This document shows positions 12,661 through 51,347 of a DNA stretch of 64,000 bases, piece after piece. The DNA lies in NCBI GenBank assembly GCA_001683735.1, contig LUGG01000009.1, forward strand, positions 1,364,001 to 1,428,000. Reading direction: 5' to 3'. This DNA is from Grifola frondosa (lineage: Eukaryota > Basidiomycota > Agaricomycetes > Polyporales > Grifolaceae). Position 1 is the first letter of the stretch, and every line of letters begins with the position of its first letter. The position numbers were made by a program, and so were the translations under genes. The notes below the pieces were generated by a model. It worked only from the letters and a program-made list of their open reading frames with translations, did not search any database and had not been told where the DNA came from.

Positions 12661-12670
12661 AGCATCAAAA

Positions 12671-23164: not shown

Positions 23165-23233
23165 CTGTTACTCACAGGGAGCCGGGAGTGAAATTAGCCT
23201 GTTGTCACAGGCCAGCCGGTCCCGGCCGGAGCT
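23165..23233 (+). repeat. Left terminal inverted repeat of the KDZ element
   Basis: Core 23171-23232 pairs with the reverse complement of 49537-49598, with seven mismatches in 62. Conserved sub-blocks include AGCCGGGAGTGAA and CCAGCCGGTCCCGGCCGGAGC. The outer CTGTTACTCACAG matches the right side with one mismatch. Confidence 0.9.
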
Positions 23234-24420
23234 CCAGTTTGCTCCGTGATTACAGGTCGGCCGGGGCAAATTCCGGTGCTGTGTTCACAGTCTGGCCGGG
23301 AATATATGGAGCACTATAATTATGGCCTGTCCGGGGCTAATGATAACACTGTGATCACAGTCTAGCTGTTTCTAAATCTTACCCCATGCTCCCTATTTAG
23401 CTGGAGCTATATGACATTTGTGCAGATTTTGCTCCACACTGATTTGCTCTGGATTGATTTGCTCCGGACTGATTTGCTCCGGGCTCATTTGCTCCGGACT
23501 TATATTTACTCTCTGATTATAATATGGCCAGGGGTTGAATCATCATTATAATAATAGTCCAACTCTTGGAGCATTTTTATTTACTAGTCATCTTGTATTC
23601 TAAAAAAGTGCTCCGATATAAATAAAGTGCTCCGGTATAAATAAAGTGCTCCGGTATTGAAAAAACTCCGGAACATGAGCTGATGCTTCAATAATTCTGT
23701 TAATCATGTGAAAGTCAACAGGACAGTTGAAATCAATATTTATAAAGGTTCATTTATGCTCCGGAGTTTCATTTTACACTCAGAGGATTCATTCTTGTCC
23801 CGGACACTCAAATATATTTCAAACATTAAGTGTGCACCCTGAAAGTTCATTTTGTTCCGGAGTTTGCTTTTATATACAGATATTTATTTCATGTATACTC
23901 CCCAGAGCTCCATTTATGTCGTGAAATTTGGTATGCTCCAGAGTTTAAAGGGTCATTTATGCTCCACTCATTTTATGTATGTCCCAGAGCTCCATTTATG
24001 TCCCAGCATTTGATATGCTCCAGACTTTGAGTTCGCACGCTGCTCCACAGATTCATCGGAGCTCCACCTATGTTCTGGAATTTACATTCATACTTTCATG
24101 TGTGTACCCCGGAGCTCCATCAATGTGCCAGAATTTGATATGCTCCGGAGCTTGAAGATTTATTCATGCTCCACTAATTCATGTATGCCTCAGAGCTCCA
24201 TTAATGTCCTGGAGCTCCTTTTATGTCCCGGAATTTCATATGCTCCGGAGTTTGAGTTTGCAACATGAAGGTTCATTCATGCTCCACTGAGTCATGGATG
24301 CCCCAGAGATTTATTTATGTCCCAGAATTTGAATCAACTCTCAAGATTTATCCTAAAGGTGCATACATGCCCCGGAAACTCATCTATGCTCCAGAGTCTG
24401 AGTCAGTGCTCCGGAGTTTA
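23205..24420. repeat. Left subterminal array of GC motifs (TCACAG/CCGGCC and TGCTCCGG)
   Basis: Just inside the left repeat, CACAG-spaced GGCCGGGG blocks recur at roughly 23205-23370. Then TTTGCTCCGGACTGA-like units occur (three within 23455-23505), AAATAAAGTGCTCCGG units (23600-23655), and scattered CTCCGGAGTTT and CCCCGGAGCTCCATT units to 24420. No gene is visible. Arrays of short motifs near transposon ends are known transposase-binding regions in CACTA elements; the same role here is an inference. Confidence 0.75.
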
Positions 24421-25470
24421 GATATGTTGTGAGCATATACCGCTTTGGGTATGTTTTGATTTCAGCCACCATATGTTGGTTTCTTTATTTCATTCTCAAT
24501 TCTTCATGGATTCTCTTCAGTTTAGGCTCATGTGAAATTGTTTCTAAAGTATAATTAGAATATCAAGACAAATCTATGTTTTATTGCAGAAAAAACATAT
24601 CATTCTCATGTAACTTTTCACAATGTTTTGCAAATTGAGAAATCAATAATGGTCCAATCAGTGTATGTAAGACATGCTTGGAATGATGGAATTTATTCAA
24701 ATAAGGTGTAGTTTGCACCGGATTAATCCATCCGATATTAAATTCAGAATTTTAAAAAAACCATTCTGATGGAGAGCTGTAATGTATATTCGGAGCATGT
24801 TTTTTTGTCTTGACAAAGCATGCTCCGAGGAAGATCGGACAAAACCGACGGACAAAAGAGCTGATTGTGCCGGAGCATGATCTTCATGTAGTGATGCTAC
24901 CCTGGTCACTGCTCCACATTCATGTCCCGGTGAGTGAAGTGTATGAGTTGAGCAATAAACAGGCGGCATACATATGCAGAGCAACACAATCCACAGCAAT
25001 GTGCTCCGACAATGCATATCAATCCTGGTACAGAATAAACTTTGAGCTGAACTATAATCACAGCAAGGTTGATATGATCCCGGAGCACAATTGCTTTGAA
25101 GCAGTGCAACCCGGATCATTCAAATTGCCCCACACAAACTCATGCACCGAGTAACGCACGGAGGTGTTAAAGATATTCACCAGTGAAAGGCTTACATGAA
25201 GGCTTACAGGATATGTGAAGTAGTAAGGACACTAAGCATGGAGCTAACTTCAGAGAGCTATATATATTAATACTTTTACTTATGAACAATATCACAAGTT
25301 CAGTGGAGTTGATGTGGAGCAATGAGTTCTGGGACAAGTGCCGGAGCTATAAGTTTATGATGCACAATACCTAAATGGTGAAGACACCCAAACGCATTCA
25401 TTGCACTACAAGGAATACAAATACAACAGACAAGAAGAGGCGGGGCAATACAAGCGATGTACAGATATAC
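24421..25470. other. No convincing gene
   Basis: AT-rich to about 24780, then mixed sequence with scattered CCGGAGCA words. Open frames on both strands at 24697-25154 overlap and look unlike protein (very high Cys/Ser, no domain). Confidence 0.4.
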
Positions 25471-25478
25471 TGCTACTG

Positions 25479-26340
25479 CTACATCTGTCGCTTTCCGATG
25501 TAGACGACCGGGGAAGGGGACAATGCCTCATCACCAGATCCCTCCTCCCCAGACCCCTCCTCAGCAGTCTCATCACCGGAGCTGCCTTCATCAGCGCTTG
25601 GGAGCTCCGGCTCATCTGCGCTGGTCCCGGGTATCACCTCTTGGACCGGCGAACCTTGACTTGCATGGATGGGCTGGCGTGAGCGTGCGCGAGCCAGAGC
25701 AGAATGGTCCGCCGAAGACTGGTGGGGCGTGGTCGAATGGACACCCAGGAGCGCTTGGGTGTTTGAGGCAATTTGCCTGAGGGACCGAGCGGGGAAGCGT
25801 GCGGGTACCACTCGACTCGCTTGCGCTTGTGGAACGTCATCGCTGAGCGCGTCCGTGAGCGCTTCGATGAACTCGTCACTGTCTGAGGACAGGGGAAGCT
25901 ATGAATCACCATGAAGGTGGCACATGCAGGAAGAGTTCCGGGAGAGACTCACTGGAAAGCGTACGGAGCAGACCTCGTGAAGCGATTGGTGGAAGTAGAT
26001 GCGGAAGGTTTCCTCCAGGTCTTCCTCCAGTGTTCCATCAGCAGCGAAACCCCGTGCCACTGCAATCATGTCATGGGCAGTGCGGAGCCTGGTCATCACC
26101 TCCGCGGTGACACTCTCAACTGCAGCAGCGAGCTGAACTGGTGTCAGCCCCCAATGTGTGCCCTGTAGGGGCTGTTACTGGAGCACATGTTAGCAAATGG
26201 CTGGTACAGAGGCGGCACACTCACGGCATGTTGAAGAGGTGGGACACACTCCGGAGCACCCTGCCAAGAAGGTGGGTGTCCCCCACGAGGAACGGCTCGG
26301 AGCAGGGAGTATCAGAGTACTCAGCAGAATCAGATGACAT
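25479..26340 (-). CDS. Small accessory protein with acidic C-terminus, unknown function
   Basis: Three exons fit GT-AG rules. Exon 1 starts at ATG 26340 (MSSDSAEYSDTPCSEP) and ends near 26225. Exon 2 is about 26175-25978 and reads LAAAVESVTAEVMTRLRTAH, then FAADGTLEEDLEETF. Exon 3 runs from about 25902 to the stop at 25479 and contains LPLSSDSDEFIEALTDAL, a basic Ser/Ala linker, then an acidic run (SGDETAEEGSGEEGSGDEAL) before SPSPVVYIGKRQM. I do not recognise the family. It lies between the left terminal array and the 3' end of the KDZ transposase on the same strand, and its exons contain CCGGAGC words, so it belongs to the element. Confidence 0.6.
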
Positions 26341-27002
26341 GAGGGGTGAATGAGTGAAGGATGAAGCTTAGAGGGAAAAAAAACAAATGACTTATATATA
26401 ATGTTCGAGGGTTCTCATCAAAGGGAATCCAGCATCCAAAGAAATGTATTTGATAAGAGTATCTGAGGTCCCTGAGAACCATTCAGTAATATTAGATTTG
26501 TCCGCGCGATCTATCGGAGAGATGATTATAGCCAGATCAGGCATCTCGGTTGGCCATATTCATAACAGCCATCAGATATAGATATATTTTTAGTATGGTA
26601 CAGCCCAGGCACTTGGCAAAATCGGGCGCGCTTACAGACATGCAAACTTATTTGGGGATGGGCATGGGGTGATGGTTAGATGAATCTTGTAATTGCACCA
26701 TGCTCCGTGCAGTGTGGGGTCAAGAATGTTATCGATAAGATATCTTATCAATACAAAGAAGCACCGGAGCATACACCTTCTCTCAGAGGAAGCTCCGGAA
26801 CATATGACTTCTTCTCGCAGAAGCCCCGTGGATGTGTGCTATTGAATTACAATAAGTTCTGGGGTACTAAAGAATCACTTCATTAAACAAATGGAACATC
26901 AAACATGTGAGAGGTTTGGTCACCACATGACCTGGAGCATGATATGCTCCATGTTACACCAGCGGTACAAACATTCTCCCGGAGCAGGTCCTTGTTGCAA
27001 TG

Positions 27003-30000
27003 CTAACTGTAAACATCTCCAAAAGTTACCACCGCATAGTCTGCAAACGACTTCCACATCGCAGCCTGTCTGACTGCATAGCACTGGTGACCTGAATGTC
27101 CCGCCTGTCCTGCTCTTGTTCTCCAAGTTTGCTCCATGTAACAGAAAAATTGAGTGCTCCAGTCCATCTCTGATCGGACTATGACCAGTTCCTCCCTCCA
27201 CCGTTCAGCTCGGGCTTTTGCTCTCAACCAGTTAACCCGGTGAACTATAACAAGTCAGCAACTATTATAGCAATTTTAAACTATACTTACATTCTCTCAT
27301 CCAAGCAGCTCCGTCACTATCACCTGACAAATCCATGGTCCGAACCAAGCGAGGGGCTTATTTCTCAAGCCCCGGGTGTGAGCTTCCACCAGGGCTGTTC
27401 CGACCTTGAAGTCTTCAGGACTCAAGGGCTTATAGCGGTCGAAAAGCTCCTTGCTCCGCATTTGACGGTCAGTGCTCGGAGCATGGATATCCTCCTGATA
27501 AAGAGATTGCAATGCACGCCGGGCATGATTATATATCCGGGACTGGGTGTTGACCTCGTTCTGAACCACCTGGACCTCATCGAAAGAGCGGAGCTTGGTT
27601 CGTTGACTATTTGCTTCCCGGACCCGTGTCCGGAACAGAAATGCCTTGTACCCTAGTGCCAGTCGAATATGGTGCAGGGCGTCATTCATTTGACCAATCC
27701 GGAGTTCGATCTCATGCTCCGCCACATGCTCCAGATGCAGACGTTGACATTTGTCCCACCCAATCGTGGAGGGCATATGGAGCAGCAGCTTCTCTGCTGG
27801 AACATCGTCCTGGAGCTCTACCGCGTCATCGGCATCCCCGCCATTGTCTTCCTGATGATCATGCCATGCAGACTCATGCACCGGATTACACTCATCTTCA
27901 TCGTCAGGGTCATCAACATCTGGGATATCATGCTCCAGGGAATGCACCATATGTGCTCCGCTCCGCTTGTGGAAATTATCGATCCTAGTTTGAAGACATT
28001 GCTGTCGATCCAGAATTTGTAGCCGCTCAGATGCAGTGGGATTCTTGCCTATTTTACGGATCTCTGAGGCCAGTGCCAGTCTGAATACAATCATTTTCAT
28101 TAGCACCATCATCTCAGTCATGGGAATAAATCATACTGGGTCTCTTGAATCTGCATCCCTGAAGCCAGCCAAGATACCGTGCCCCGGGGGAGACCTTTAT
28201 TTTCCTCTGTCTTGGCCAGCCGGAGCTGAATTTCACTCCGCGTCGGTGCTGTGGAGCAGTCCATCACCGGAGCCGTGTATCAGACATTAGCACCGACCTT
28301 CATGTTTTTTGACCTCAAAAATGTCCATGACGTCCACATTTTTGACACGCTCCATCATGGTGATGTTATATTGATCGGTCCATTCTTGAACGTCCCCTGG
28401 ATCTGCATTTCTGTTTGCCTCTTCAAGCACCTCCCGATGAAGCTTTTCACCGTCGACTGCTTTGTGATATTTCCGGAGCAATGTAGGAACTGCTCCGAGA
28501 TTAATGATTGTTAGACAAGGATAGTGCTGGAGAGAACACACCTATTTTGGTAAGCTTTTTCCAGTTAGAGTCATTCATATGGTCGTCTATGACTTCTTTC
28601 CGGTGAGCAGCTGACATGCCCCGAGTACTTCCCGAGATGTGATTCAGCGGGGCCCACAATGTTTCGATGATTTCCCCATCGATTTGCCCCGCACCCTTGA
28701 TGAAATTGGGAGAATATCTTGCGAAGCAAGCATCTTGATGTCCATGGCATGGAACAGTCCGATGCCCCGGAGTATCGTGAGTCCTGCAGGCATCTGGAGA
28801 TAAGGATTACCTGCAAATCTCTCCTTCATCCTCTTTCCATACTGACACATAATGTCGTATAAGAGGAGCACCAGTGTTATACCAAAGAGGGATGCCAATG
28901 CACTGTTGAGAACATAATCCATATTCTTTTGGCTATGTCCTTGTTAATATATGCCGGGACAGAGATGCACCGGAACACTTTACCGTTCTCCCTTTTGAAA
29001 ATCTACTGCTGAGTGGGGAACAAAACACCTGTGTCTTCCACAAGCTGCTGCACCGATCCCTGTGGCTTCCAGATTGTGCCGGTTAGCATTCGCCTGGTTC
29101 ACTGCAGCATGATCATTACAGGTTGATCTCTGTGCTCCGGTGACATATTAGCTCAGACATATTGATACAGATGGATTGTATTTACTTACCTCTTTCGATT
29201 CCTTGGCTACTTTGAGATGGTTTTTGTAGTTCCGGTCCTGGACCATGAATCCTTCCCCATCTCTTAATTTCACATCATCGTCCAGTCGTCTCATCTTCAT
29301 GTGCTCTGCAGAGAAGTTACCATCCATCACAAAGCTCCGAGTATATTTCCACCTGTGCCGGTGAGTTAATCATTGCACCCTGTATTGGCGGGAATCATCT
29401 CACCGGTCATGTTGATCATCCGCCCAATCTGGCGGAAGATTGATGCCAGGCTGGGGACATGCGGCACAAAATAGTGCATGACTTCCAGCTCCCTTGACAC
29501 CCGCTGGATCATGTGCCGCTCCACTCCATTTGGCACTTTTCAGTTCTCTCCATTGTCGGCTCACCCGGAGCAGCTCTCGGTATCTGTCCTGTAAAGTAAT
29601 CATCAATATAGTACCGTGCGAAACAGTGATCACCTACCGGGACAGTGTGTGGGAATGCCGGTGAAGTGACTCTCCGGAGCTTGCTGTAATAATTCAAGGC
29701 GGAAGTCTTGCATTCTTTATTTTCCAATAGAAAGTCGTCAAGCAACCGGAACGTGAATGCAGTCCGGGGACATTTTGAGCTTGCGGGATACAGCCCCATG
29801 TCTAGTAGCTGCATATCCGGAGCACCTGCATTCGGACACCCACACCAGTGAGCTTCGAGATGGTGGACCCCACTGATGTCTACAATGACCAATGTCTGTT
29901 ACAAACGGTCGTAAGCATTATCGCTGGTTGTTGTTTTTACTTGTTGGTTCGATACTTTCTTTATTGTCGGGGACAGTGGGCTACTCCGTTACTCGCTATG

Positions 30001-33000
30001 TGCTTTATGCACGTGACCAGTAACCCGTTTTCCTTTTCTTTTCCACGATACGTTTGTAGCGCACGGACCAAGTGCCACATCGTATGATACCGTTAGTTAC
30101 TTGTTCCGATTAGTTACGAGTTGTTGCGCACGGACCATGGATTCCTGTATAAATAGTCGGTACTTCGAAGATGATCGCTAGTTCGATCTCTTCGTTCAAT
30201 TCTACCGTTTAACCCCGGACTCCGCTACAAGTGTGCCTTTCGGCCCACTTCGCTCCGTCTCCCTTCTATCCGCACCCTCGAAGACTTCTCCCCGTAGAAG
30301 TCCTTCACCTTGAACTTAGGACCTCTAGACCACCTAGACCCCTGGACGCTTGGCACCTCGATAGGTAGCCATCGGCAATGGTCTTAACACTAGATCGAAC
30401 TCTACCTTTTGTCCCACCTCGACAGGTGCAGGACTGACCCCACCGAATCCAGAACAGGAATTTCGAATTGAAGGTCGAGGAGTTCAGAGAACCCCGACAA
30501 CACCCAGAACGAATCAAGGAGCTCAGAGAGCCCTGATACAGACGAATTCTGAGGACCTAATAGGCCCAGAATAGAAGCAACCCTGGAAAGGCAAAGCCTT
30601 TTGACGTTTCCCCCCACCCCTCTTGCACGTATCCTCGAACATTACATCCAGAACGTTCAAGCGATCATCCTCGCCCATAACACCGACCATTCATAGAACC
30701 AGAAGTCCAACTTGATTTAGAAGCCGTTCTATATCATCTGGAAAGAGCCCTTACCTCCCTCGATCGGTTCTCGGGATCATACCAATCCAGAAACGAACTA
30801 GCAGACAGGACGTCGTTGAATTCCCTTCCCCCCACCCCAGATCCTCCTTTCCGGACTATCTTCAGAACCGAATTACCCGTATTCAACGATCCATTCAGAA
30901 CCCCTACCTGCTAGGAGACGAGGAACTTGCTGGACTTACAAATTTCCTAAGAAGACTTTTAGACGCACAGAAAATCTACGAACTCTGGGAAAACCAAGGA
31001 CGGATAGCACAAACTGGCGGAACAAACAGCAATTCGTTCTAACTGCGCCCAACGACCGCATCGCTTCGACCCAGAAGACGAAGTAGACGTACACTACTTC
31101 CCCGGCACTACCTATAACTGGGTAGTGTGTGAAGAACAACCCTGCAGAAATCGATATAACGACATCGCATCTAAAACCAACGCATACGAACCCATCCAAA
31201 CGAACAGAACTACTGTTTGGAAACGAGTCTCCCTTCTATACCCGAAGAAGAACCATTGCCTTCTATCAGTTCCAAGGGAAAAGAGAAACCCCCCTGAAGC
31301 CCAAGCCACTAGCCATGGGAACGCAGACAACGACCCAAACACCTAGCATAGGAACCACTGTAAGCCTTGGTTCGGCCCTCACCCCCTTGCCACCTGCCCA
31401 ACCGGGAGGAACATGGACGGGGGAACTACTGGAGGATTGACTGGACCAGGAGTGCCAGGAGGAGGCGGAGGAGGACCCCCTGGAGGACCTCCTGGTGGAC
31501 TTACCGCTGGACCCCCTGGAGGTACAGGTGGGCCAGGCGGACCTGGAGGAGCACCTGGTGGTGGGCCACCACCAGGACCCCCCCTGGAGGACCAGGTGGA
31601 CCTGGAGGACCTGGAGGGCAGGTGCCGGACCATTGCCCGGTCAGAATCCCCCTGTGATCGGTATTCAATCCAAAGCAAAGGTCAAAGAACCGGATACCTT
31701 CGATGGGGATAGGACCAAAACCACGAAGTTCCTTAATGAACTATATCTCATGTTCAAGAACAGACCCCTGGACTATGCCACCGATGAGGCCAAGATAGTC
31801 ACCGCTATCTCCTACATGAGGGGAAAGAATGCCGAAACGTGGGCACAAGCTGAAGTTACCTTGGCCCAGGAGCCCGACCCCAATAACCCCAATATGGAAA
31901 GGGGGTTTGGGACGTGGATGGCCTTTCAACAACGTATCAGGGATACGTTCGAAGTAGTCGACAAGGATATAATGGCCTCCATTAAATTGGAGGCCCTCTC
32001 ACAGACGGGGCCCATCGATGACTTCGATACCGAGTTTAATCGCCTAGCCAGAGAGGCCAACATCACGCAAGGAGCGGCCCTAGTTGCCATGTACCGCCAA
32101 AAGCTGGCCAAGGGAATCAGAGAAAAGATAATGTACATGGATAACCCCCCCACTACCATAGAGGGATGGCAGGACAAGGCCAAGCAGATTGATCGAGCCT
32201 GGCGTACCAACCGAGCCATCGAAACGGAGAAAGGGAATTATCCAAAAAAGACACGTCAGGAAAAACTATCAAGGCGCGGGAGTCAACAAGCTGACTCAGA
32301 CGAACGCATGAAACTCCTAGAAGAGGAGCGTGCTTCTATTGCAAAGAAGTTGGACATATGGCCAGAGAGTGCCCGAAGAAGAAGACCGAGAAGGACCAGC
32401 CGAAGAAGAAGAGGAAAACCACGAAGAGACGGTCAGAGCGACGTTGAGACGCAGATGACGAAGAAGAAACTCTCCAAGGATCTGATGAAGAGGAAGTGGT
32501 GCCGGCACCCATTCGAGCAACCGAGGAATTGGGATATGGGGAAGTACTTTCCGACGAAATGGATTTTCAGTAGGGCAGCCTGATCCGATGACAGGACTGC
32601 CGCAAGTGTCGATTTCCCTAACTGTATCCACCGAGCGCAGGCGCAATACAATTCGGTTACCCAGTTACGTGGAATTTGACGGAAAAGCCATCGGAATAAA
32701 AGCCCTCATCGACAGCGGGGCAGATGGAACCTTTATATCACAACGACTGTGGAAAGGTTCAAACTCCCCACCGTAAATTCCAAGGGCTATTAAGATCAGC
32801 AATGTCGATGGATCCTCCAATCGCAATGGATATATCACCGAACGAGTCGAAGGAAGCTAATCCTTCAAGGACAAAAAATCCCTACCAGATTCTATGTCAC
32901 CGCTCTTGGACCAGAAGAAGTCATCCTGGGAATCCCTTGGTTAAGAAAGACCAATCCAAGGATCAACTGGGAAACAGGAGACATGGTCATACCTGACCAA

Positions 33001-38626: not shown

Positions 38627-39757
38627 TTACTCCGTACAACGTGTGTAACACCGCATGCCCATCCAATGTGGATACTCCACCCCTGCACGTCCCAGCACCT
38701 CTGTTGATATAAAACATGCATAACACAGCCTCTCACCTGTCACCTTCTTCACTCCATGCCGCACCACTTTCCCACACAGTCCCACCACTGTTCCGGCGGT
38801 GTACTTTGCAGACAGCCCGAAGTTGGTAAACTCCAGCTCTGCATCTTCATATTGACCCAGGGTCACCAGCATATCCATCCACGGTGCACGTCCAGAGTTG
38901 TCCCGGTGTGCTGGTGTTTCGCGATTGGAAATGATTTGAATAGCGGTGAACACTGACGTCCACTGTGCAATCAAAGGATGTAGTCCCGGATCCTGTGCCA
39001 AATGACGGAGCCCTTGGATCCCTGCACTATAAAGCTCCGGGTGCATCACCTGCAGTATTCCACTTAACAGGGCATTGGACTCCCCTGACAAGCGCAGCCA
39101 ATCTCTGCACTCGGGGTGCTTGCGTAGCGATGCTGAAGTCTCCGGAGCATACGGCTCAGTCTGATCTAGTCGGTATCATTCCACTCTCAATAAATGGAAC
39201 TCATACCTTATGACCCATTTGAAGCCAACCTGCAGACAACGAGATGATCCCTGGAGCAATCCAAGTGCACTGCTCCGGTGGTTTGAAGTACTCTGAGCTG
39301 TCCCGCCATGATTTTCCTTTGTTGGGTATCTGGAATAACCGGTTCATTTGCTGGATGGAGACTTCCATAAAATGCTGCACCGATCTTTCAGTCAATACAT
39401 AATATGTTTGTCCCAGAACACACCTGTCGACTTTCTGACAGTGCTCCAGGGAGCACCCAGCACAAAATTCGCCGGTGCTTGTCCACTATCACCGCCGGAT
39501 CGCTGATCGTTCCGGAGCACGTTTTTGGTGGAAACCGGTGTTCTAGCTTTTCCTCCAGCTTCACCCTCCGGCCTGTTGGTTTCTGCCCCAACCGGTCTGC
39601 ATACTGATCCGCGTCCCACTCCACAATGACTTTGACATGCTCCGGTAAGGTCGATAAGTAAATTTGTTAAACATTTGGACTTACTTGGATTTTGATAGGC
39701 CTTCACCAGCAACTCTGCCAAAGCCATGCACTCACACACCATGTCCAGGCACAACAT
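38627..39757 (-). CDS. TET/JBP-family 2-oxoglutarate/Fe(II) DNA dioxygenase carried by the KDZ element
   Basis: Exons by eye: 5' part about 39757-39424 (start uncertain), 39384-39207, and 39118-38627. The first exon holds PPKTCSGTISDPAVIVDKHR and LCWVLPGALSESRQ; the second HFMEVSIQQMNRLFQI. The last carries the catalytic double-stranded beta-helix: HPELYSAGIQGLRHL, IQIISNRETPAHRDNSGR with the HxD pair (HRD at 38908-38900), then VVRHGVKKVTGERLCYACF with the distal His (38758-38756) and the Arg that binds 2-oxoglutarate. Proteins of this family oxidise 5-methylcytosine or thymine in DNA, and fungal members are known to be linked to KDZ transposons. The gene lies 100 bp upstream of the transposase on the same strand. 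No frameshift is seen in the catalytic exon. Confidence 0.85.
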
Positions 39758-40017
39758 GATATTGGCAGTGGCCTAGACATGGTGGTAGGCTTTGCAGGGG
39801 TTCTGGTTTGAATATGGAGGGTATACTTGAACAGTTCTAGCAAATACAGGGACAGGGCTTCTGTATATTCTAAGGTGTAGCCTTGCATACACATGTCCTG
39901 GAGGATGAACAGGTTGGTTTTTAAATCATATGAGACAATGCTGATACCAAAGCCATGCTCACTTCTGTGGTTGGGAACATATCTGGTGAATAGAAGGTGT
40001 AGAAATGAGGATGTCAC
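39703..40017 (-). CDS. Possible exon of an unidentified gene
   Basis: The frame reads RYVPNHRSEHGFGISIVSYD, then LFILQDMCMQGYTLEYTEAL, which resembles a repeated mushroom protein I half-remember but cannot name. It overlaps the uncertain 5' end of the TET/JBP gene. The surrounding 39,770-40,300 bp lacks CCGGAGC words, so this may be a foreign insertion or the decayed tail of another gene. Confidence 0.25.
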   Translation of the reverse strand: MTSSFLHLLFTRYVPNHRSEHGFGISIVSYDLKTNLFILQDMCMQGYTLEYTEALSLYLLELFKYTLHIQTRTPAKPTTMSRPLPISCCAWTWCVSAWLWQSCW

Positions 40018-40546
40018 TGTAAATGGATGACAGCAAAGAGGTCAAGATGACACATCCTGTTGTGATGAAATTCAAAGTTCATGTAGGAACAAATAGCAGC
40101 ATACTGATATACACGAAATCGTGGCTGACCATGAGATGAGAGAAATCAATGGTGTAAATCCAATGTTAATTGACATGAATGTCTTGCCTTAAGGGTTCAT
40201 AAAGCAGGAACAGCTTTGTTCAGCACCCACATAACATAAATCTGAAAGAACAATTATGATATGTCCCCATACATACAGTGCAATGGAGCACCAACTGTCT
40301 GAGACAATATATTTGTTTGTTTTGTTGGGAGAAATCAATGTTGGCTGTAATAGATGCGGAGAAGATGTGCTGTTTCTTGATGGAGCAGCTGATAACCTGA
40401 CATTCGGAACCTTTGCAGAACTCAATATGATTGGTCTGAATGTGGATGATCTGAGATCGAATTTCGGATCAAGTAGGATGAAATATGAACATGTAAGACA
40501 AGGTTGAAGCAGTGCTCCTTCCCCTTTCTCTCTCTGAACCTCCACC

Positions 40547-43340
40547 ATGTCTGGCAACATTGTGTTTACTAAACTGAGCTTGCAGACCTGGCCAATGCTG
40601 CTGAAGATCATTTACATGGCCTGAAATCTGAAAGGAGTGCCCTTCGAAAGGAGTTAGCAAGGAAATTCTGTGAGTCTCGGGAGGAAGGTGGAGAAGAATT
40701 TCGGGAGAAAATAACTCAGGTAAGTGACCAGTGAGTGCTGTGTTGCACGTGGAACTGACAGCTAACAGGAGATTCGGCAATGGTTTATGAAAAAAGAAAA
40801 GTCAAAGAAGCACCGAAAGCAGCTGTCAAAAGAGCGGAACTATCTGCTCCGAAACTGGACTGCGTACCGGGTGTGGCGGGCGGAACATTCTCAAGAGATC
40901 ATCAGTCGAGCGAAAGAGATGAGCGGGGCAGAGCCCGGAGCTGATCGACGGTTCATTGAAGCTTATCAACCAGCAGCCAGCGAGCTATGGAGGAAGGTAG
41001 GGAACCATCGTCAAAAAGAATACTGGAGCACGGCACACAAATGGAATATGATGGGACCTCCAGAGAGGGTTCAGCAAATGTGAGAATGCGCGGTGCATTG
41101 AAAGAGATTTACTGATGTACCGATAGAGTGGCAGATGAACAGCTGTCGGAGATGTGTGCGAAATTTGCACGGTTGATGAAGATGCAGACCGGAGCAAACG
41201 TGTTCATATTAACAGGACATCAAGACTCAGCAGGAGATATGGTGGTGATGCGGTAAGGAAGTTAACGATAGCACTACACTGGAATTCTGACACCGGAGCA
41301 GTCACGACTTTAATGACAAATATAGCACAATAGGACAGAAATTTACGGACACGTTTCCAAAGTGGGCGAACAACATTATTCATGTTGGGTGAATTCTCAC
41401 GCGGAACTGCTTTAGTAAGTGAATCACCGGAGCAACCTTCATTATTAAGCTTGTGTTATATAGATCCAAACCATGATGAGAGCTCCGATGATGACGAGGA
41501 TCTCCAGCCAAAACAAGTGAAAGCGAAACTGGTGCCATATGCATTCAAAGTGGATGGGGCGGGATCCCAATTGTTCCTAGCTCTGTGGAGGGTAACATGT
41601 TGATAATGCAAAACATGATCCGGACATTTATTACGATTCATTGGAGTATGTTGCAGCTTATAAACATATTGCTCCGCTAACATGCTCTTGATTAAAAGAT
41701 CTTGCCTGTGGAACAACGAAAGGACGAGTTCCCTGGGATAGACTAAACAAAGATGGATTGCACCGGTACATTGCACCGGGGTCATTTCCAGATGATGACA
41801 TGATCATCACTGATCCATCGAAAGGTGAAGAGAGAGATGGCACAAGAGCTGCTCCGACACTGGCAGGAGCGACAGATGCGGGCGGACGTGGACTATGTGT
41901 TCCGGTTCACTCATGGGATAGTGAACTCAGAGTGCCGGGTGCATTATACAACAGCCCCGAAGATAGCGATGCAGATGATGAGGCTTCAGGCAAGACCATG
42001 TCCGGAGCACGAGGGACACATGGTGCACACCGAACACGGAAGACTTCAAAGAAGAAGGGCAAGCGTCGAGCTGTGATTCTTTCTGACAGCGAGTCAGATG
42101 GAAGGCCCGGCATGGATGGGGAAAGCAGTGCAACAGTTGAGGCACCTGCTCCGGTGGTGTCACCTGGTGATGTGGCAGACATCCCACAGAGGCAAGCAAG
42201 GTCAGCAAGGAACCAGGCTCCATCGTGGGCAGGAGATTCGACACGGAAGCGTCATCTATTCCTGAAATCGTTGTCAAAGGAGGGGCTCTATAACATTGCT
42301 CCGGGTGATCTTGAGGAATCGGTGCGTGGTTTCATATTATGGATGTAGTACCAATATTCTAAACTAACAACACAGGGGAGTTGAATGTCCCGGTTCAAGA
42401 TGCTCCGGGGAGCTCTGGGGCAACTGGAGCTACCAGTCAGCATGGTTGCCATGAAGATTTCCACCGGAGCTCAAAAGGTCTGTCCCGGATCGTCGACTTC
42501 TGGTCTGATGAAATCATGGAGTATACTGCTGGGACTAAGCCGGTGGTTATCGAGGAGATGGTGCAGGGAGCATTAGTGCTGGGACAGATCCTTCGAGATC
42601 TGCACCAGTCACAGTTCCATCTGGATGATCCAGATGAGCTCCAGGGTAACAATGTTCCGGGATATGTGGCGAGCACGGTGCACACCTTCCGGAGCATATC
42701 CTCGATCACGGAACTCTGTGGCAAACTGGTCTGGGTCTGGGTGGAACACGATACTCTGGATACATATGGTAATATGCCAGGTGGTGTGGCATCTGCAAGA
42801 CCATCGAGGACAAAATCTGCCAATCTGACTGCAGTGTTTACCCCAGAAATCAACAACTCCATCCCCAGGATACCTGCTCCATTCGATATCTCATCGTTCC
42901 AGTCGATCTCCGGTGCACCGCATGATAACATCACTGTCCCAGTCCGACCAACCCTGAAGCACACAGAGCTGCATGACATTGAACTGGGGACTAGTTTCCC
43001 AGCTTTGCAGATAGATCAATCCGGTGCACCTGATGTTGGGATGGAGCAGGAGAATGTTAGCGATGACAATGCACCAGCTAATGATGATGCACCAGTGCTG
43101 GATATTGAGCGGAAAAGGAAAGCGAGGCGGAACATCGAGCCGGGGCAAACGAAGCGGAGCAGGAGGTCTGCGCCACCTCCGTTGACCCGACCTCAGACCA
43201 GGAGCATTGCACGGGAGAGCAGGACAGTGACCCGGAGTATGGCTGCACAACGTGGAGGAAGCCGCGGAGCAAGAGGTGGCACACTGGGTGGTGATGTCCG
43301 GGGCAGAGTAACAAAGCGAAGTACTTTTAAAAAGAGATAG
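40547..43340 (+). CDS. Accessory protein with HMG-like segment and basic tail, multi-exon
   Basis: Exon pieces: about 40590-40720 (LHGLKSERSALRKELARKF), 40770-41080 (KKHRKQLSKERNYLLRNWTA, then YQPAASELWRKVGNHRQKEY), 41127-41253 (DEQLSEMCAKFARLMKMQTG), about 41300-41600, about 41700-42345 and 42381-43340. The 40787-41083 block has the spacing of aromatic and basic residues expected of an HMG-like DNA-binding helix bundle; this is inference. The later part alternates acidic and basic stretches (NSPEDSDADDEASG, RKTSKKKGKRRAV) and ends RGRVTKRSTFKKR. A similar protein accompanies KDZ elements in other mushrooms as I recall. It is divergent from the TET/JBP gene. The first exon and two joins near 41820-41950 are uncertain. 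Confidence 0.6.
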
Positions 43341-43456
43341 TTTATGTTGAACTGAGCTCCACACATTGTATATATCCTGGGGCATACATAAAAGCATAGG
43401 TGCAAACATTGATATGTACATTTTGACAAACCACAAGTAAATATTGTTCCGCCTAA

Positions 43457-44545
43457 GGATACCTCTCAACCTGAACATCCCACTGCTCCAGGCGCTGCTG
43501 GTACCGCCGCCATTCTCACGCAATCATGGGCCAAGTGATGAGCTCCGCCTCCATACCAGGGTCCAGCAACACTGCATGCTCAATGGTGTCAGTGCATGCT
43601 CCACCCACACGGGAGTGGAGCATCTGCTGAATGGTGGTCAGCTCCCCCTCCCAGGCCCTGGACGTTGTGCCGGAACCACTGTAGTGTTCCGGCACGGAAC
43701 GCTAACATGTCTTCCTCCCTCATTGGCACCTGATCCGGTGTGTCGTGGATCAGCCATCCTGGACTGATCTCCTCCGCCCATCTCTCAATCGTGGGCAAAG
43801 GGGCATCACGGGAGTTGGAGAGCACAGGGGGTGGCTCTGTCCATCCCAATCTTCTATCGATGGAAGGCCGTCCAAGGAGACTAGCAAAGTTGGGCTGGAG
43901 CAGGGGATCGTCCCGGCGTAGGTAGATGCTACAATTCTTCTGGGGCAGTGAGCTGGTTGTATGGAACAAAGTGGTCATGGGGCGAGTCGGTCTCCCAGAC
44001 CATAGGTTCATCATCTGAGGAAGCAGGCGGAGCAAAGTGTGAGGGAGGAGAGTCAGACACCCACGGTGCAGGTGGGGATGACATGACAGATGGGGAGGGA
44101 GGAGGGTATTCAGAAAGTGTGTGGGAGTCCCGCGCCATGATGGGAATGTCCGGTGGAGCAGGAGCTCCGCTGCCCTGGTAGTGATCGCGCGGGAGTTGGG
44201 CTCCCAGTTCAGTGGGGAGTCTTCATGCTCTGCATGGGGCACATTGAAGTGCTCCGGAGGGGAATCTGTGTGCCAGATCATGGGGGAGTCCTCCAGATTG
44301 GCCGATGCACGATAATGCCCCGGTGGGGAATTCGGATGCCATACCAGCGTCGCATCCTCAGGATCGAATGACTGCACTTTGTAATGCTCCGGTGGGGCAT
44401 ATGCGAAGACAGTGTCCTGCACACTATGAAGACCGTTCCCCACCTCTAGCTCCGTCAGCTCTGTTGAAATATGTGGTCTGGAGTTATAAATGTCTGCATG
44501 AATAGTCAGCAAGAGGAGAAAGAAGAGATAAATGTTATTGAACAA
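43457..44545 (-). CDS. Accessory repeat protein with DSPPEHF-type units, unknown function
   Basis: The minus-strand frame 44545-43589 contains repeated units around the core W-x-x-(D/N)SPPxHF: YAPPEHYKVQ, VWHPNSPPGHYRA, IWHTDSPPEHFNV, then, in a shifted frame at 44138-43929, WVSDSPPSHFAPP and VWETDSPHDHFVP. The C-terminal part reads RWAEEISPGWLIHDTPDQVP, then MLAFRAGTLQWFRHNVQ. The tail near 43500-43457 reads WRRYQQRLEQWDVQVERYP before a stop. The N-terminus (MFNNIYLFFLLLLTIHA) is hydrophobic, but it may be intron or leader. Unit-to-unit frame changes point to indels. It is not recognised, and lies between two plus-strand accessory genes. Confidence 0.5.
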
Positions 44546-44965
44546 CTACCAGGGTCAACGTCTGTCAAGCCTGGAATGCACATTAAAAATATACTGGGAC
44601 GGGGGACAGGCGGAGCTTACCAAGGGCTGAGTCCTGGGCCGGAGCATCATTAGTAACTAAATGATGTTAGTATGATTGATCTATGTGAATACTACACAAA
44701 AAGATACCTTGTTGCATGTTGTGAGGATAAAATGAGAGAGACGGTCGACACACAGATGGGAGACTTTAACAGAATCCAGGTCCACGGTTACGTTATGTTG
44801 AAATCGAGATTGATGGCAGTTCAGATTTAGCACGTCACGTGATCGGCATTGCGAACAACTCATAAACCCCGCGCTCTCAACGGTATCCCGCTTCTTTGCT
44901 CCCACAGCATCTCAACCTCTGCTTCACTGCATCCCCTAGCTTTGAACTAACTCTTACTTACTGCA

Positions 44966-47953
44966 ATGTCTGAACACACTGCTCCCATTAACGTCCAGGA
45001 CAGATTCAACCAGATGGACGTTTTGGCGGCACAGCTCTGCCTGGACTTTGAGGCCCGCCCTCCTGTCGATGCCCCGGGATATGCGGTGTTCGAGCGTCAT
45101 TGGTTCAAGAGATTGGTAAGTAAATATTTTAATCTCATAATTTTGTTTCAACCATTATTACTTACATTTTATAGAACTGACTTTATAACGATGCGGAGCA
45201 GGTGCGGCAGAAGACCGACAAATTCTGGTCGTTCCCCCGCATCCTGCTCAGCGGAGTGGTCGAATGCTTCCACAAGCAGGTCGAAGATAAACCTCCGAAA
45301 ATGACGTCGCTCAGCAAGACAGATACCCGCATGGTGGTGAGCAAGTGGTTCAAGAACTCGAGGGAGTTTGCACTGCTAGGTAAGTAACATTTGCTCCAGT
45401 CCTTTCACACTACTGACATTGACTTAGGCGTTGAATTTGGGAGCAAACCATCAACTAGTGCACCGGCTGCACCGGCTGTGGTCCAAGGCGGTGGAGCACA
45501 GACTGCTCCACTTGCTGCTCCTGTCAGTGTTCCTGTCCCGCCTGCCATTGTCCCTGCTCCACCTACTGTCTCTGCTCCTGTCCTGGCTTCTACCACTCCC
45601 ATTCCCAGTGTTCCTGCTCCATCCACTGTCCCTCCTCCACATGCTGTCCTTACTCCACAAGTGACTGCTCCACCCGCTCAACCACCTGTCACTCTGGATC
45701 TGGCTACAGTCTCCCCACCAGCATCGCGCCCTCGGCCGCAACCTCGCCCAATCTTCACAGCAAAGCTCGGAAGTGTGGGTGGTGCAATGAAACCTGTACC
45801 GCTCACATCTGTCCCTGTGCCTCGAGCACAGACATCACCACCGGTGCAGAAGTCTGTAGATGTTCCCGGTGCAGGTGTCCCCCTGCACCGGCAACATCTG
45901 CACCAGCTGACACTGCTACGGTGGCAGCTGGAGCAATCACTGCGAAACCAGGTAAAGTCTTTTAAGTTCGATTCAATATTTATAACTTATAATTTATAGT
46001 TTCTCCACCTACACGTCCCGGCGTTGACCCCAATGTCCCCGCCACTCTTGCAGCTGCTGCTGCATTGAGCCGGGACAAGAACCTCAAGCTCGCACGCCAG
46101 ATGGATGTTGACAGAATTGTTGACCAATGTAAGTAGCCTTTATCCATTGATAACGGTGATATTTACTTACTTTCAACAAACCAACAGCGAGCACATCCGG
46201 GAGTGCCAAACGGCCCCGGGACAAGTCTACCCCAGAGCATCCACAGCCGAAGAAGCCCCCCCCAGCTGAGATGGAAGACGTCGAGATGGTGGACGCTGAC
46301 CGAAGCAAAGGCAAGGAGAAGGAGCAAGACGTGGAGATGTCAGATGCACAGGATACGACGGAGGACACGAACATGGCCGACATCGTGGAGGTCGAGACTG
46401 TGCTCACCCCCAAGCAGGGCAAAGGTATATCTCCGGTGCATGCTCATTCGCTTACTAAATCATTGTCTTAGCCAAGCCGAAGAAGGGGAGCAAGAAGGAT
46501 GGCCCGAAATCGCCGGCGCTCATCAAGGATGATGGCGAGTATGTCCCGACCACGGACGTCACGCCGGAGCTGAACATCCCCATTCTCACTGATGCGGAGC
46601 TGGCGGTCAAGTATCCACTGAAGATATCGGTGCGTTCACCTTTCACTAATTTTCTTATCTAACACACTGTCTAGCATGTGCCATGTGAATTCTGCGTCAA
46701 GGAAACCCGGGTCTGTTATTTGGTCGACGGTGCAAAGGCAAAATCTTTGGCATGCGCCTACTGTCGCAGTGTCAAGGACTCATGCAGCATCACTCCTGAT
46801 GCGCGGGGCAAGAAAGGCAGGGAGGAGCAACAGAAAAGCCAGGATGATGCACTCGCGCGTGCGTCTGGCTCAGAAGCTTGACCCCATTGTCCGGAACCCA
46901 GACTGGGAGGTCAAGCTCCGGCGCAAGCTCTATGAAGTTGACACCACCATGTCGATGAAGCGCAGGCAGCGCACCAGTGCAGTGCCCAAGAAGCCTGCAA
47001 AGCCCACGTCCACCGGTAAGCAATATCTTTTTTTTTAAATCTTCCATGTCCTTCATTTCGTAGCTTACGTTCTTGTTCCACCACGCATAGCTTCCAAACC
47101 AGTCACCTCACCCGGCACAGCCAAAGCTGCTCCCTCTACTACTGCTCCGAAGCCTCAGGCACAAACGACTGCACCTGCTCCCCCCCAACAGTCCTCTGCC
47201 ACTGGTCCCTCTCAGAGCTCCGCTGTTCAACCTGCCCCGGAGGTCCTCAAGATCAGACGTGACACGGGGCAAACCAGCACAGATGTTCGCAAGCCTGAGT
47301 TCCTCCTACTTGGTCAGCCAGATGAGGAGTCAGAGAGCGACTCGCCGGAGCTCCCTAGTGACAAGGAGCTCACGTCTGCCCCGGAACCTTCCACCACCCA
47401 GAGTGCCGGCACAATTGTCGTGCCCCCCCGCAACCCCAAGCGATCGTTCAAGAGGGCTGTGAGCCGATTTCTCACTTTTGCTTCCCCAGATGGTGACGTC
47501 GACAAAATCGGTGAACGGTTCCACACCATTCTCGACCTCGCGGAGCAGGCTTGCAACCACCCGGCGGAGATGCAGCTCATCCATCAGCGCCTCGATACCC
47601 TTGCACTGGTCCCGGGACTCATCCAGACCATGTCCACTCAAGTCACGGATATTCAGGGGAATGTCAAGGTCTTGAGTGCGCTACCGGAGCAGGTGGAGCA
47701 GATTGCCAGGGCACAGGCTGTTCAGCATGAGACCAGCATGGTGCAGAAGCAAGTGAATGATGCCAAGTTCACCAAGCTTGAGGCGCGGAACATCTCTGCA
47801 GAAGCACTCCTGGAGTCATTGCGTCTGGAGCTGGTCGCGCTAACAACGGGTGGGGCATCTGGTGCGGGGCAGAGCAGTGGTGGAGCAAATAGTGCTGAGA
47901 ATGCTCCGGGTGGTAAGGATGCACCGGAAGATGCACCAGCTGGTGCAATGTAG
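44966..47953 (+). CDS. Large accessory protein: conserved N-terminus, Pro-rich linker, cysteine cluster, helical C-terminus
   Basis: Starts at 44966 (MSEHTAPINVQDRFNQM). Exon 2 begins near 45203 (VRQKTDKFWSFPRILLSGVV), followed by a long Pro/Ala/Val-rich linker (45430-45930). An acidic/basic region (46190-46430, MEDVEMVDADRSKGKEKE) leads to a cysteine cluster at 46675-46800: CEFCVKETRVC ... CAYCRSVKDSC, two CX2C pairs resembling a compact zinc cluster. The last part, 47420-47953, is helical (AEQACNHPAEMQLIHQRLDT) and ends GGKDAPEDAPAGAM. Seven or so short GT-AG introns are needed. No family name is known to me. DNA or chromatin binding is a reasonable inference from the cysteine cluster, basic patches and context. 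Confidence 0.6.
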
Positions 47954-48258
47954 CCCGGGGCACCAATGGACGCTGCTCTGCTGCTTTCTGTCCCGCTGCT
48001 TGTATCTTTTCTTAGTTGTACTTGTATTCTGTAGTGACTCGCTCCCAAAATGGGAATCTCTTGTTCTTGTTTCAATTGGCTCCTTATATATAAGCCTCAA
48101 GGAAACAATAAATCCCGGAGCACGTTTGTTCCACCTTGTATTCTCTGTCTCTTCACTACATTGTTCTCCATCTCATTGTTCTGCGGAGTTTGAACTGATA
48201 TTGCTTTTAATCCATCGAGTGTCTTCCATTTAACCAACACCATTTTCAGTCGTCACTC

Positions 48259-48979
48259 ATGTCTCAAGCACCACTTACTGATGATGCTGCTGCCCAGAAC
48301 ATCGCCCGGGAGACCTATTTTCGCATCGCCGCCACTGAGATGCAGGTCCGCGAGTGGCGCATTTGGCAAGCCGCAAAAGCCTACCCGGAGCATCCAGATG
48401 AGTTGACCCGCCTACGCTGGGTGCAAGGTCTGGAGCATGAGATGGTAAGCTCCACTTCATTTTTGTTAACAATACTAATCGCCGGAGCAGGTTCACATCA
48501 AGGATATTCTTGGCAAAATGTACATCGCCACCTACAAACCCTACATTCCCCAGATGGTCTCTATCCTCATTCATGCAAGCCTCGCTTGGGTCGACGCCAC
48601 TTACAACATTGACCCAACTGCATTGCCCCGCCCCACCGGTGATCCTCCCTTGCTCCCTAAAGCATTCGAATACATGGGATTACGCTATGCCTGGTGGACC
48701 TGGCTGGAGCATCCTCACCCTAATCCTCCGACTTGGTGGAAAAATCCCCTTCCTAAATATGTGAGTGTCCCGCCTTGCTCCGGATCATGACACTCATCAT
48801 TGTAGCGTGACCCGACACGCGTCATGCGTGCGGATTGTCAGGAGGTCAGTGAGCGTTTAAGCGCTCTTGACGATCATATCCGGGACTACATTGAGATGCA
48901 AGATGAGAAGATCCGGCAGTTGGAGATCACAGTCCGGGACATGGAGGAAGATATGTTGCACCAGGAGGATGAAAACTAA
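48259..48979 (+). CDS. Small accessory protein with C-terminal coiled coil
   Basis: Three exons: 48259-48444 (MSQAPLTDDAAAQNIARETY ... GLEHEM), about 48491-48760 (VHIKDILGKMYIATYKPYIP, then YMGLRYAWWTWLEHPHPNPP) and about 48806-48979. The last encodes a heptad-rich helix (VSERLSALDDHIRDYIEMQD, then EKIRQLEITVRDMEEDM) ending in LHQEDEN-stop. Introns have GT-AG borders, one of which contains a CCGGAGC word. The function is unknown; the coiled coil suggests self-association or binding to another element protein. It is the last gene before the right terminal array and has the same strand as its upstream neighbour. Confidence 0.65.
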
Positions 48980-49379
48980 TTGTAGTCCACTGTACTTTCC
49001 ATTTTGCACTGGCGGTACTTTGCACCGGCTGTGTAATGTAGTTATAATTTGCACCGCTTATGTCAAGATGACATTGCTCCACTCCCTTCTGCTCCAGATA
49101 CCCTTTCTATTCTTAAGATAGGTTCGCTAATAAGATATACAACCAACAATATGTGCCGGTGCATTCATTTCAACAATTATTTATATATATCATCATGCTA
49201 CATAATAGCTATTATTAATCTCACAGTCTGTACACACCGGGACAATATCTAGCATGGAGCATCCCGGTGCTATACCTTCTTGGAGCTGACATGTTCCGCC
49301 ATATAGGAACATCTTCTGGGACTGACACATTTGTGCTGTCCCACTCTCAGAATACACTATCAGGGCACACTACTGAGAA

Positions 49380-49560
49380 AACCACCCTATGTTCATCTAC
49401 CGGCTGGACTGCAATCACAGTCATTGAGTTTGCCCCGGCCAGACTGCAACCACAGTGATGTTACCTGTCCCGGCCGGACTGGAACAACCGCTTCTCATTT
49501 AGCCCCGGCCGGACTGTATTCACGGGGCAAATCATTGCTCCGGCCGGGACCGGCTGGCCT
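49380..49560. repeat. Right subterminal array (CCGGCCGGACTG...CACAG units)
   Basis: Four or five units of the pattern CCCCGGCCGGACTG followed by a short spacer and TCACAG or similar occur about every 35-45 bp. They are the inverted counterpart of the array at 23205-23370, so both ends carry the same motif clusters next to the terminal repeat. Confidence 0.8.
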
Positions 49561-49604
49561 GTGACAACGGGGCAGATTCACTCCCGGCTTGCTGTGAGTG
49601 ACAG
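49537..49604 (-). repeat. Right terminal inverted repeat of the KDZ element
   Basis: Reverse complement of 23171-23232 over 49537-49598, with seven mismatches in 62, plus an outer CTGTGAGTGACAG arm. Beyond 49604 the CCGGAGC word becomes rare. Confidence 0.9.
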
Positions 49605-51340: not shown

Positions 51341-51347
51341 TGCGCCC

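Follow-up and report, generated by a model that had tools for sequence, protein, structure and literature searches.

Why do basidiomycete genomes contain tens of TET genes borne by transposons, and in what way could such a dioxygenase aid its own element without demethylating competing elements? Both questions are raised by a stretch of 64,000 nucleotides from Grifola frondosa (hereafter the window; C8:1364001-1428000 of the 39.06-Mb, 64-contig genome G000), which contains a complete KDZ transposon encoding its own TET/JBP dioxygenase. Positions are those of the window unless a contig is named. This element and two sibling subfamilies, represented by copies on contig 3 (C3; C3:2315741-2333260) and contig 2 (C2a; C2:3499546-3516325), each show their own short motif, dispersed over the whole element, exons included, and bounded by the element ends. 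This observation is new here; no prior description of a barcode of this kind was found in searches of the open literature, which do not establish absence from print. An element-bounded, subfamily-specific barcode makes the specificity of TET directly testable.

The motif was first noticed as TGCTCC in the left end, and the tested words were chosen from exploratory many-word tables on the same sequence; the comparisons with flanks, with a gypsy retrotransposon nested in the element and with siblings concern places separate from those used to choose the words. Excluding the gypsy element, the 18,554 bp of the window element contain GCTCC/GGAGC 196 times (103 and 93 by strand), compared to 39.3 ± 6.4 (maximum, 57) in 300 dinucleotide shuffles. 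The longer word TGCTCCGG occurs 40 times in the element, compared to 0.5 in shuffles, and is absent from the 37.5 kb of window flank. The density of GCTCC per kilobase rises from 0 to 3 in the left flank to 22 in the kilobase of the element start, followed by 7 to 20 up to 29 kb, 1 to 2 in the gypsy interior, 4 to 13 in the remaining element, and 0 to 6 in the right flank. Tandem arrays hold 10 of the 196 sites, and 94 are located in approximate exons, at 9.4 per kb compared to 11.9 outside them.

The siblings show different words. C3 contains GCCGG 218 times, compared to 32.5 in dinucleotide shuffles, and C2a contains TACCG 113 times, compared to 23.2. The window word GCTCC reaches only 1.1 to 1.4 per kb in C3, C2a, and a further sibling on contig 2 (C2b), whereas GCCGG reaches 12.4 per kb in C3 and 10.5 in C2b, more than half of it as TGCCGG, and C2a shows TACCG at 6.7 and TGCCG at 9.1 per kb. 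The subfamily words are thus TGCTCC(GG) in the window, TGCCGG in C3, and TACCG/TGCCG in C2a. The motif borders at the target site duplications (TSDs) are as sharp in C3 and C2a as in the window, so that a dense, family-specific motif confined to the element was found in three subfamilies. Common to the words is CGG with differing extensions: CGGAGCA in the window, CGGCA(A/T) in C3, and CGG(C/T)(A/G)A in C2a. In the window, 95 of the 196 GCTCC sites are followed by G and are therefore able to hold CGG.

The z-score of the top 6-letter word per region describes the same distribution. It reaches 26 and 21 in the two window parts, 18 and 25 in the C3 halves, 12 and 10 in the C2a halves, and 21 in the C2b part, compared to a background of 4.1 to 5.9 in the window flanks, the gypsy element, regions L012 and L020, and a C2 flank. 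Searched across the genome, a two-motif pattern gave 53 matches, of which the window element holds 5, and its reversed control gave 74. The pattern as such is therefore not rare, and the evidence is the local density of the motif and not its rarity.

The enrichment extends into coding sequence. In exons of the window aligned with C3, GCTCC occurs 60 times, in all reading phases and on both strands, compared to 23.7 ± 4.2 in 500 synonymous-codon shuffles, and codon usage was rejected as its cause, the shuffles reaching 36 at most. In the reverse direction, C3 exons aligned with the window contain GCCGG 81 times, compared to 32.2 ± 5.0 (maximum, 49), and C2a exons contain TGCCG 60 times, compared to 27.4 ± 4.3 (63 compared to 28.9 ± 4.7 in C3-aligned exons). 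Only 3 of the 60 window sites are common to C3, and 16 of the 81 C3 sites are common to the window; so few shared sites in homologous genes indicate that the motifs were written largely separately. Amino acid identity is lowered at window motif codons (0.51 compared to 0.66 overall) and amounts to 0.54 to 0.56 at the TACCG motif codons of C2a, so that motif writing in these two cases perhaps came at some cost to the protein sequence. The same loss of identity, which is not seen at the motif codons of C3 (0.68), could mean that the motif arose as a side effect of biased mutation or repair that varies between lineages, for example through context-sparing CpG decay, gene conversion, or repair linked to TET. 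CpG is present in many motif copies, and the surroundings show strong CpG decay, with an observed/expected ratio of 0.28 in the left flank compared to 0.62 to 1.03 in TET elements. CpG-free parts of the motif are enriched too, however (GGAGCA, 128 versus 13), which indicates motif gain and not only spared CpG, and the word differs between siblings in one genome and ends at the element borders. A bias of this kind is quite improbable as the source of the motif.

Its distribution along the element also bears on a role in transposition, in which KDZ transposase or an HMG-like accessory protein would bind sites that fold or tag a long element for excision and integration, or the element would identify itself at synapsis, with TET as separate cargo. 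High motif density is seen along the full length of the element and not just near its ends. Of three TET-less KDZ regions, two are without a strong word (z-scores of 5.3 and 5.0); the third, L053, with a z-score of 46.8, was rejected as a motif carrier, as its signal comes from a tandem array of 63-bp units that does not overlap the KDZ gene. Such a role would nevertheless fit subterminal repeats rich in CCGGCCGG, six nonautonomous copies of 1.3 kb with 12 to 14.5 GCCGG per kb, and the zinc-chelating CxC2 clusters of the transposase itself. It is considered unlikely. The array of L053 (C7, ~97.2 to 100.1 kb) is comprised of ~45 copies of the 63-bp unit, and the adjoining KDZ gene recurs in inverted orientation 25 kb away.

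If the motif is read by a protein of the element, the best candidate is the product of an accessory gene with a cluster of six cysteines (Cys6), a functional proposal and not a family assignment. The gene encodes CX2CX6CX12CX2CX6C at 46684, and the spacing is intact in five elements (window, C3, C2a, C14, and C32; spacer, 9 to 12) with four distinct sequences, C14 being a near-copy of C2a. All five agree with CX2CX6CX5-16CX2CX6-8C, the spacing criterion for Zn(II)2Cys6 proteins given in the text of PMC2447501. Nine further loci that were scanned gave no cluster match, with coverage established only for C8b and the C27 piece stopping short. The second cysteine triad shows the form C-x2-C-R-x2-K-x2-C in all four distinct sequences (CAYCRSVKDSC, CGYCRGLKISC, CIGCRVVKQAC, and CTYCRAQKICC), with its lysine, by the usual spacing of Gal4, at the place of Gal4 Lys18. 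According to the text of PMC5559640, Gal4 Lys18 contacts the guanines of CGG, and CGG triplets are the typical targets of Zn(II)2Cys6 proteins. Protein identity of the Cys6 product is 0.47 to C3 and 0.35 to C2a over alignable codons, which makes it the fastest-changing gene compared, apart from one doubtful open reading frame (ORF) with DSPPEHF repeats, as expected of a reader following a changing barcode.

The motif is interpreted here as a self-recognition barcode, read by an element-encoded protein that targets TET to its own DNA, a tentative interpretation that falls just short of being probable. The Cys6-cluster protein would read CGG plus the subfamily-specific extension and concentrate the dioxygenase of the element on its own DNA, and the HMG-like protein, whose gene is the divergent neighbor of TET at 18 of 22 loci, may act as a partner or DNA bender. 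Oxidation of 5-methylcytosine by TET would then keep the transposon unsilenced without demethylation of the whole genome. Once TET and transposase die, as in the window copy, the element would become ordinary decaying DNA. The full proposal of sequence-addressed antisilencing, in which a subfamily rewrites its entire DNA with a CGG-based barcode, a zinc cluster protein reads it, TET oxidation is self-directed, and barcode and reader have codiverged at least three times in one genome, is possible but on balance rather doubtful. CpG observed/expected ratios of 0.85 in C3 and 1.03 in C2a, compared to 0.63 in the dead window copy, would fit a protection that ends once TET dies; the neighboring repeat-rich flanks show 0.22 and, to the left of the window element, the value given above. 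Age or region may explain the pattern as well; the gypsy element shows 0.89, and the TET loci on C12 and C6 show 0.62 and 0.66.

Several observations weigh against a self-targeting barcode. The motif is weak in the parts from C24 (z-score, 6.8) and C6 (6.3), which show CGG/CCG words, and CGG is absent from the top words of the C32 part (7.1), in spite of its Cys6 gene. At the C12 TET locus no CGG word is strong either; its z-score of 7.9 comes from an AT word, and 5 of its 20 top words are CGG/CCG words. The left flank of C3 (L052; C3:2309500-2315499), retroelement-like by its ORFs and without a Tet_JBP match, reaches 11.3 with CCGACT/CGACTT spread over 6 kb, possibly an unrelated instance of word dispersal. 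In exons, 16 to 17 of 72 to 81 C3 motif sites are shared with siblings and show no loss of identity (0.68 and 0.64), and the TACCG excess of C2a is modest: 30 compared to 18.3 ± 3.8, a count that shuffles can reach (maximum, 33), or 38 compared to 21.4 ± 4.0 (maximum, 35) when aligned with C3. Copies ~1% apart gave mixed results, with no consistent extra conservation of motif sites, and are too similar to show retention. A TET-less KDZ region shows a CpG ratio of 0.95, so that CpG retention is no proof of protection. As for the reader, the gene is present in C8b, a near-copy of C2a, but a frame change and the loss of one cysteine disrupt its cluster. The Pfam Zn_clus cutoff of 21 bits was not reached by any of four pieces, the best score being 11.3 bits in one of them, and a low-confidence single-sequence model of the cluster shows strands and gave no PDB match. 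With neither the Zn_clus cutoff nor a Gal4-like fold reached, the protein is named for its cysteine cluster and not as a member of the family.

Another explanation is that of an ordinary Kyakuja transposon with TET and passenger genes, in which neither the motif nor the cysteine gene has a targeting role and TET acts nonspecifically. Section 4.2 of Kojima 2025 (PMC12730594) describes oxidized cytosines also on retrotransposons, which suggests nonspecific action, and several TET loci of the present genome have no strong motif. Because it leaves the barcode statistics of three subfamilies unexplained, this explanation is very improbable.

The boundaries on which the confinement of the motif depends were determined by alignment of the flanks of 23 genome matches of the inverted repeat. 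The termini are 5'-GAGCCCATTCAGTC at 23144 and, as reverse complement, 5'-CACACCTTTCAG at 49626; they are unlike each other, are located outside the inverted repeats, and mark the points beyond which sibling flanks diverge. Three repeat matches, all of one small-copy type, show neither terminus (C13:941708, C45, and C15). The shared termini together with an exact 7-bp CATATTG on both sides define the element as 23144-49626, and the short target duplication anticipated by the earlier note is thereby confirmed. Exact 7-bp TSDs were found in five of the six elements with both termini available: CATATTG in the window, AGGATGG in C3 (17,520 bp), CTTTGGT in C2a (16,780 bp), and CATGAAG and AACCTAC in two nonautonomous 1.3-kb copies; the sixth element, a 1.32-kb copy on C13, has no TSD. 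The inverted repeats, which the earlier note had placed at both ends, are a real pair of 137 nt with 79% complementarity, subterminal rather than terminal, and their outer borders were ruled out as termini by the sibling flank alignment and the TSD position. A coincidence of GC-rich repeats was likewise ruled out, as siblings contain them with the same ends. The description as a 26-kb transposon with defined ends, KDZ, TET/JBP, and cargo stands with amended ends, gene number, and length, the last dividing into an 18.55-kb KDZ element and a 7.93-kb nested retrotransposon. No empty allele or similar site was found in this assembly. The ~1.3-kb nonautonomous copies L011, L012, L014, L017, L022, and L023 are GCCGG rich, and L014, L017, and L023 show one terminus of a different type.

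KDZ is next to the GAGCCC end, and the terminal gene next to the CACACC end, in the window and C3. This polarity is reversed in C2a with an equally perfect TSD, and one-ended copies occur in both classes (C2b and C12 are window-like; C13, C14, and C8b are C2a-like). The gene block has thus changed its orientation between the two termini at least once; recombination of one subterminal repeat with the other is the probable cause.

Both enzymes named by the earlier note were confirmed. The transposase shows a CxC2 match with an E value of 1.3e-22 and a KDZ domain in pieces at 28564-29342, and the TET/JBP catalytic domain matches Pfam with an E value of 4.8e-21. The closest solved structure by sequence is CcTET of Coprinopsis cinerea (PDB 7vpn and 7w5p; related, 8jkk; E value, 2.1e-22), with conservation of the catalytic H and D, the Gly and Asp positions, and the distal H and R; in the window copy, a frameshift precedes the catalytic exon. 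The alignment with CcTET identifies the AG type, with HxD..H and Arg, Gly/Asp at CcTET positions 331/337, HRDNSGRAPWMD, and RHG...GER. For this type, the main text of Kojima 2025 gives Gly/Ser and Asp at the two positions and expects oxidation of 5-methylcytosine, perhaps also of 6-methyladenine (PMC12730594). A protein search for TET gave one match, from Sparassis crispa, 45% identical, with at most 49% identity over at least 100 residues to the TET copies compared. The 7-bp TSD and the AG-type TET suggest the Kyakuja lineage. The 5'-CA..TG-3' termini without terminal inverted repeats (TIRs) of Kyakuja-1/2_LB were not found, the ends being CACACC and GAGCCC with a subterminal inverted repeat; as this feature is stated for two families, the label Kyakuja-type is used here and not the name of either family.

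The window copy itself is dead. A Ty3/gypsy long terminal repeat (LTR) retrotransposon encoding an integrase C-terminal domain and a chromodomain sits within a KDZ exon and splits the transposase gene; the earlier note does not mention it. The retrotransposon is young, as its LTRs of 493 and 490 bp are nearly identical, differing by 1 substitution and 3 one-base gaps. Besides that of the Cys6 gene, the element has a cysteine cluster at 37.8-38.3 kb, which represents the N-terminal part of the transposase itself, separated by this insertion: the CxC2 match in the downstream part begins only at profile position 27, both parts form one continuous open frame in C3, and both are collinear with C3 and C2b by tblastx. 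The 7.9-kb insertion also explains a KDZ-TET distance of 10.1 kb in the window compared to 1.1 to 2.4 kb at 17 other loci. Further lesions are a frame change in the KDZ core near 28.75 kb relative to C3, a frameshift in an N-terminal exon of TET relative to four siblings, with the catalytic exon open, and an in-frame stop and indels in the HMG-like gene relative to siblings; the frame of this gene also seems to change close to its start. What looked like a TET frameshift at 39.42 kb was rejected, the site being an intron also present in siblings. The earlier idea of a working cargo is thus refuted for this copy by the gypsy insertion together with the disrupted frames of three genes (KDZ, TET, and HMG-like). 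Open gene models exist in siblings for TET (C2a and C3) and the HMG-like gene (C2a). In the left flank, 77 nt at 6627-6703 match the gypsy LTR at 84% in inverted orientation and are perhaps an old LTR remnant.

The cargo was compared across the genome with models from a simple splice search and sibling tblastx, made without transcripts and approximate for the Cys6 and HMG-like genes. The searches gave 22 matches for Tet_JBP, 128 for KDZ, 23 for each of two HMG-like parts, 79 for terminal-gene exons, 6 for the coiled-coil part, and 1 (itself) for the DSPPEHF ORF. Synteny was judged from all TET, HMG-like, and coiled-coil matches and, by eye, from 22 of the 128 KDZ and 30 of the 79 terminal-gene matches, with the four TET loci lacking KDZ rechecked by eye against the full KDZ match list. 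Several loci are near-identical duplicates, and the 22 TET loci represent perhaps eight lineages by manual grouping without a tree. KDZ is located downstream of TET on the same strand at the 17 loci mentioned above, the window being the 18th; it is missing at C13:926030, C2:3214961, C2:3334903, and C6:1978575. The HMG-like gene diverges from TET at a distance of 1.0 to 5.1 kb at 18 loci, and conversely, 19 of the 23 matches of its N-terminal part (at 18 of the 22 loci) are placed in this way; it is missing at C12:1416827, C13:908853, C2:3334903, and C6:1978575. The terminal gene is found on the HMG side at 7 of the 22 loci, including the window, at a distance of 9.5 to 9.9 kb, and on the KDZ side at 9, so that its position is not fixed.

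Identities at codon positions 1/2/3 between window and C3 are 0.81/0.86/0.47 for KDZ, 0.73/0.76/0.50 for TET, 0.69/0.73/0.41 for the HMG-like gene, and 0.63/0.72/0.42 for the terminal gene, a pattern that points to selection in these four genes. The Cys6 gene shows 0.56/0.70/0.32 over 164 codons, and the DSPPEHF ORF shows 0.48/0.60/0.45 over 126 codons in inconsistent order. By sequence comparison, the conserved set is comprised of KDZ, TET, the HMG-like gene, the Cys6-cluster gene, and the terminal gene, largely collinear in siblings. Of five accessory genes proposed earlier, the HMG-like gene and the terminal coiled-coil gene are well supported, the Cys6 gene is supported and fast changing, and the DSPPEHF ORF is doubtful. 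The acidic ORF was rejected as cargo; its match in C3 covers 32 codons in a position that does not correspond, and C2a has none. None of the accessory proteins reaches a Pfam cutoff. An HMG box gave no Pfam match at E values of ≤10 in three sibling pieces or ≤1 in the window piece; a single-sequence model of the HMG-like protein shows helices and gave no PDB match, and for a spliced sibling model none of 7997 scored candidates reached an E value of ≤0.001. The name HMG-like comes from the earlier note and from the work of Iyer and colleagues and is not a result of this analysis. The viral contigs searched gave no matches.

Features of the window element (window positions; ".", no strand)
Feature	Position	Strand	Remark
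Complete Kyakuja-type KDZ transposon, nested gypsy included	23144..49626	.	26,483 bp; termini common to siblings with unlike flanks and exact 7-bp TSD
Left TSD CATATTG	23137..23143	+	
Right TSD CATATTG	49627..49633	+	
Left subterminal inverted-repeat arm	23165..23301	+	Pair I4, 137 nt, 79% complementary
Right subterminal inverted-repeat arm	49468..49604	-	Pair I4, 137 nt, 79% complementary
GCTCC/GGAGC motif field, KDZ side	23144..29896	.	
GCTCC/GGAGC motif field, TET side	37826..49626	.	
KDZ transposase, part downstream of gypsy: most of CxC2 and KDZ core	27006..29896	-	
KDZ transposase, N-terminal part with first cysteine cluster, severed by gypsy	37826..38527	-	
TET/JBP dioxygenase gene, AG type	38627..39900	-	
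HMG-like accessory gene, divergent from TET	40547..43340	+	
Multiexon Cys6-cluster gene with C-terminal coiled-coil-like region	44967..47953	+	Exon model approximate
Small terminal ("tail") gene	48259..48979	+	
ORF with DSPPEHF-like repeats, doubtful as conserved gene	43592..44545	-	Sibling tblastx 35-37%; order inconsistent in C3
Acidic ORF, unsupported as cargo	25482..25898	-	No conserved counterpart in place in C2b, C3
Nested Ty3/gypsy LTR retrotransposon with chromodomain	29897..37825	+	LTRs 29897-30389, 37336-37825; 5-bp TSD ATGTC

The element is located at the border of a decayed region and ordinary sequence: the CpG-depleted left flank with its ratio of 0.28 extends over 1-23137, and the right flank (49633-64000) shows 1.03. 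The immediate flanks (~23117-23143 and 49627-49665) resemble intron ends, with GTAAGT before and TTTACAG after, and the element looks as if it had landed in an intron of a gene. The left flank also contains related inverted repeats at 11395-20991 (pairs I1-I3, I5, and I8; 81 to 98%), probably copies of a small repeat, and an ORF on the plus strand (9626-10252) with a YVDD stretch, by eye like a reverse transcriptase remnant, without a Pfam match at an E value of ≤0.01.

In comparison with known systems, Iyer and colleagues reportedly described in PNAS in 2014 the linkage of KDZ, TET/JBP, and an HMG-like gene, multicopy in basidiomycetes; that work is not known to cover the barcode, the Cys6-cluster gene, or defined ends flanked by TSDs. 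Complete TET-bearing KDZ transposons, the Kyakuja elements with 7-bp TSDs, have been published in Kojima 2025 (PMC12730594), whose main text speculates on a nonspecific action of TET in Agaricomycotina. The window element resembles them in KDZ, the AG-type TET/JBP with HxD and Gly/Asp at 331/337, and the 7-bp TSD, whereas its ends (GAGCCC..GGTGTG) and 137-nt subterminal inverted repeat differ from the CA..TG termini without TIRs stated there. Neither the accessory set nor an element-wide motif was found in that main text, which mentions Vandal elements once. The active elements KDZ1-3 of Cryptococcus neoformans share KDZ with a CxC cluster and long (near-)terminal inverted repeats; they differ in a length of 9 to 11 kb, 8-bp (4- to 8-bp) TSDs, TIRs of 139 to 241 bp, and CxC1, and the available text of the report mentions no TET (PMC12810828). 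The Cys6-cluster protein shares the spacing with Gal4-type Zn(II)2Cys6 proteins; it differs from them in that its R/K signature is located in the second cysteine triad, and it gave scores below the Zn_clus cutoff and no structural match.

The closest working analogue is the VANDAL/VANC system of Arabidopsis, described in the texts of Hosaka 2017 (PMC5735166) and Sasaki 2023 (PMC10398659), which shows the same dense, family-specific short motif on the element's own DNA. There, VANC proteins act in demethylation of the element's own DNA, and counter-silencing is sequence specific and element encoded, a function that the fungal element may share by analogy. According to the text of PMC5735166, VANC21 motifs lie mainly in noncoding tandem repeats in one orientation, whereas those of the window element occur on both strands and in exons, with few in tandem. 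The fungal element also differs from VANC in encoding an oxidizing enzyme, and no homology is claimed. If the barcode is indeed read as proposed, it would represent a second, independent invention of VANC-style self-targeted antisilencing, coupled to an oxidizing enzyme and with so many motif copies that they are evident even in protein-coding sequence.

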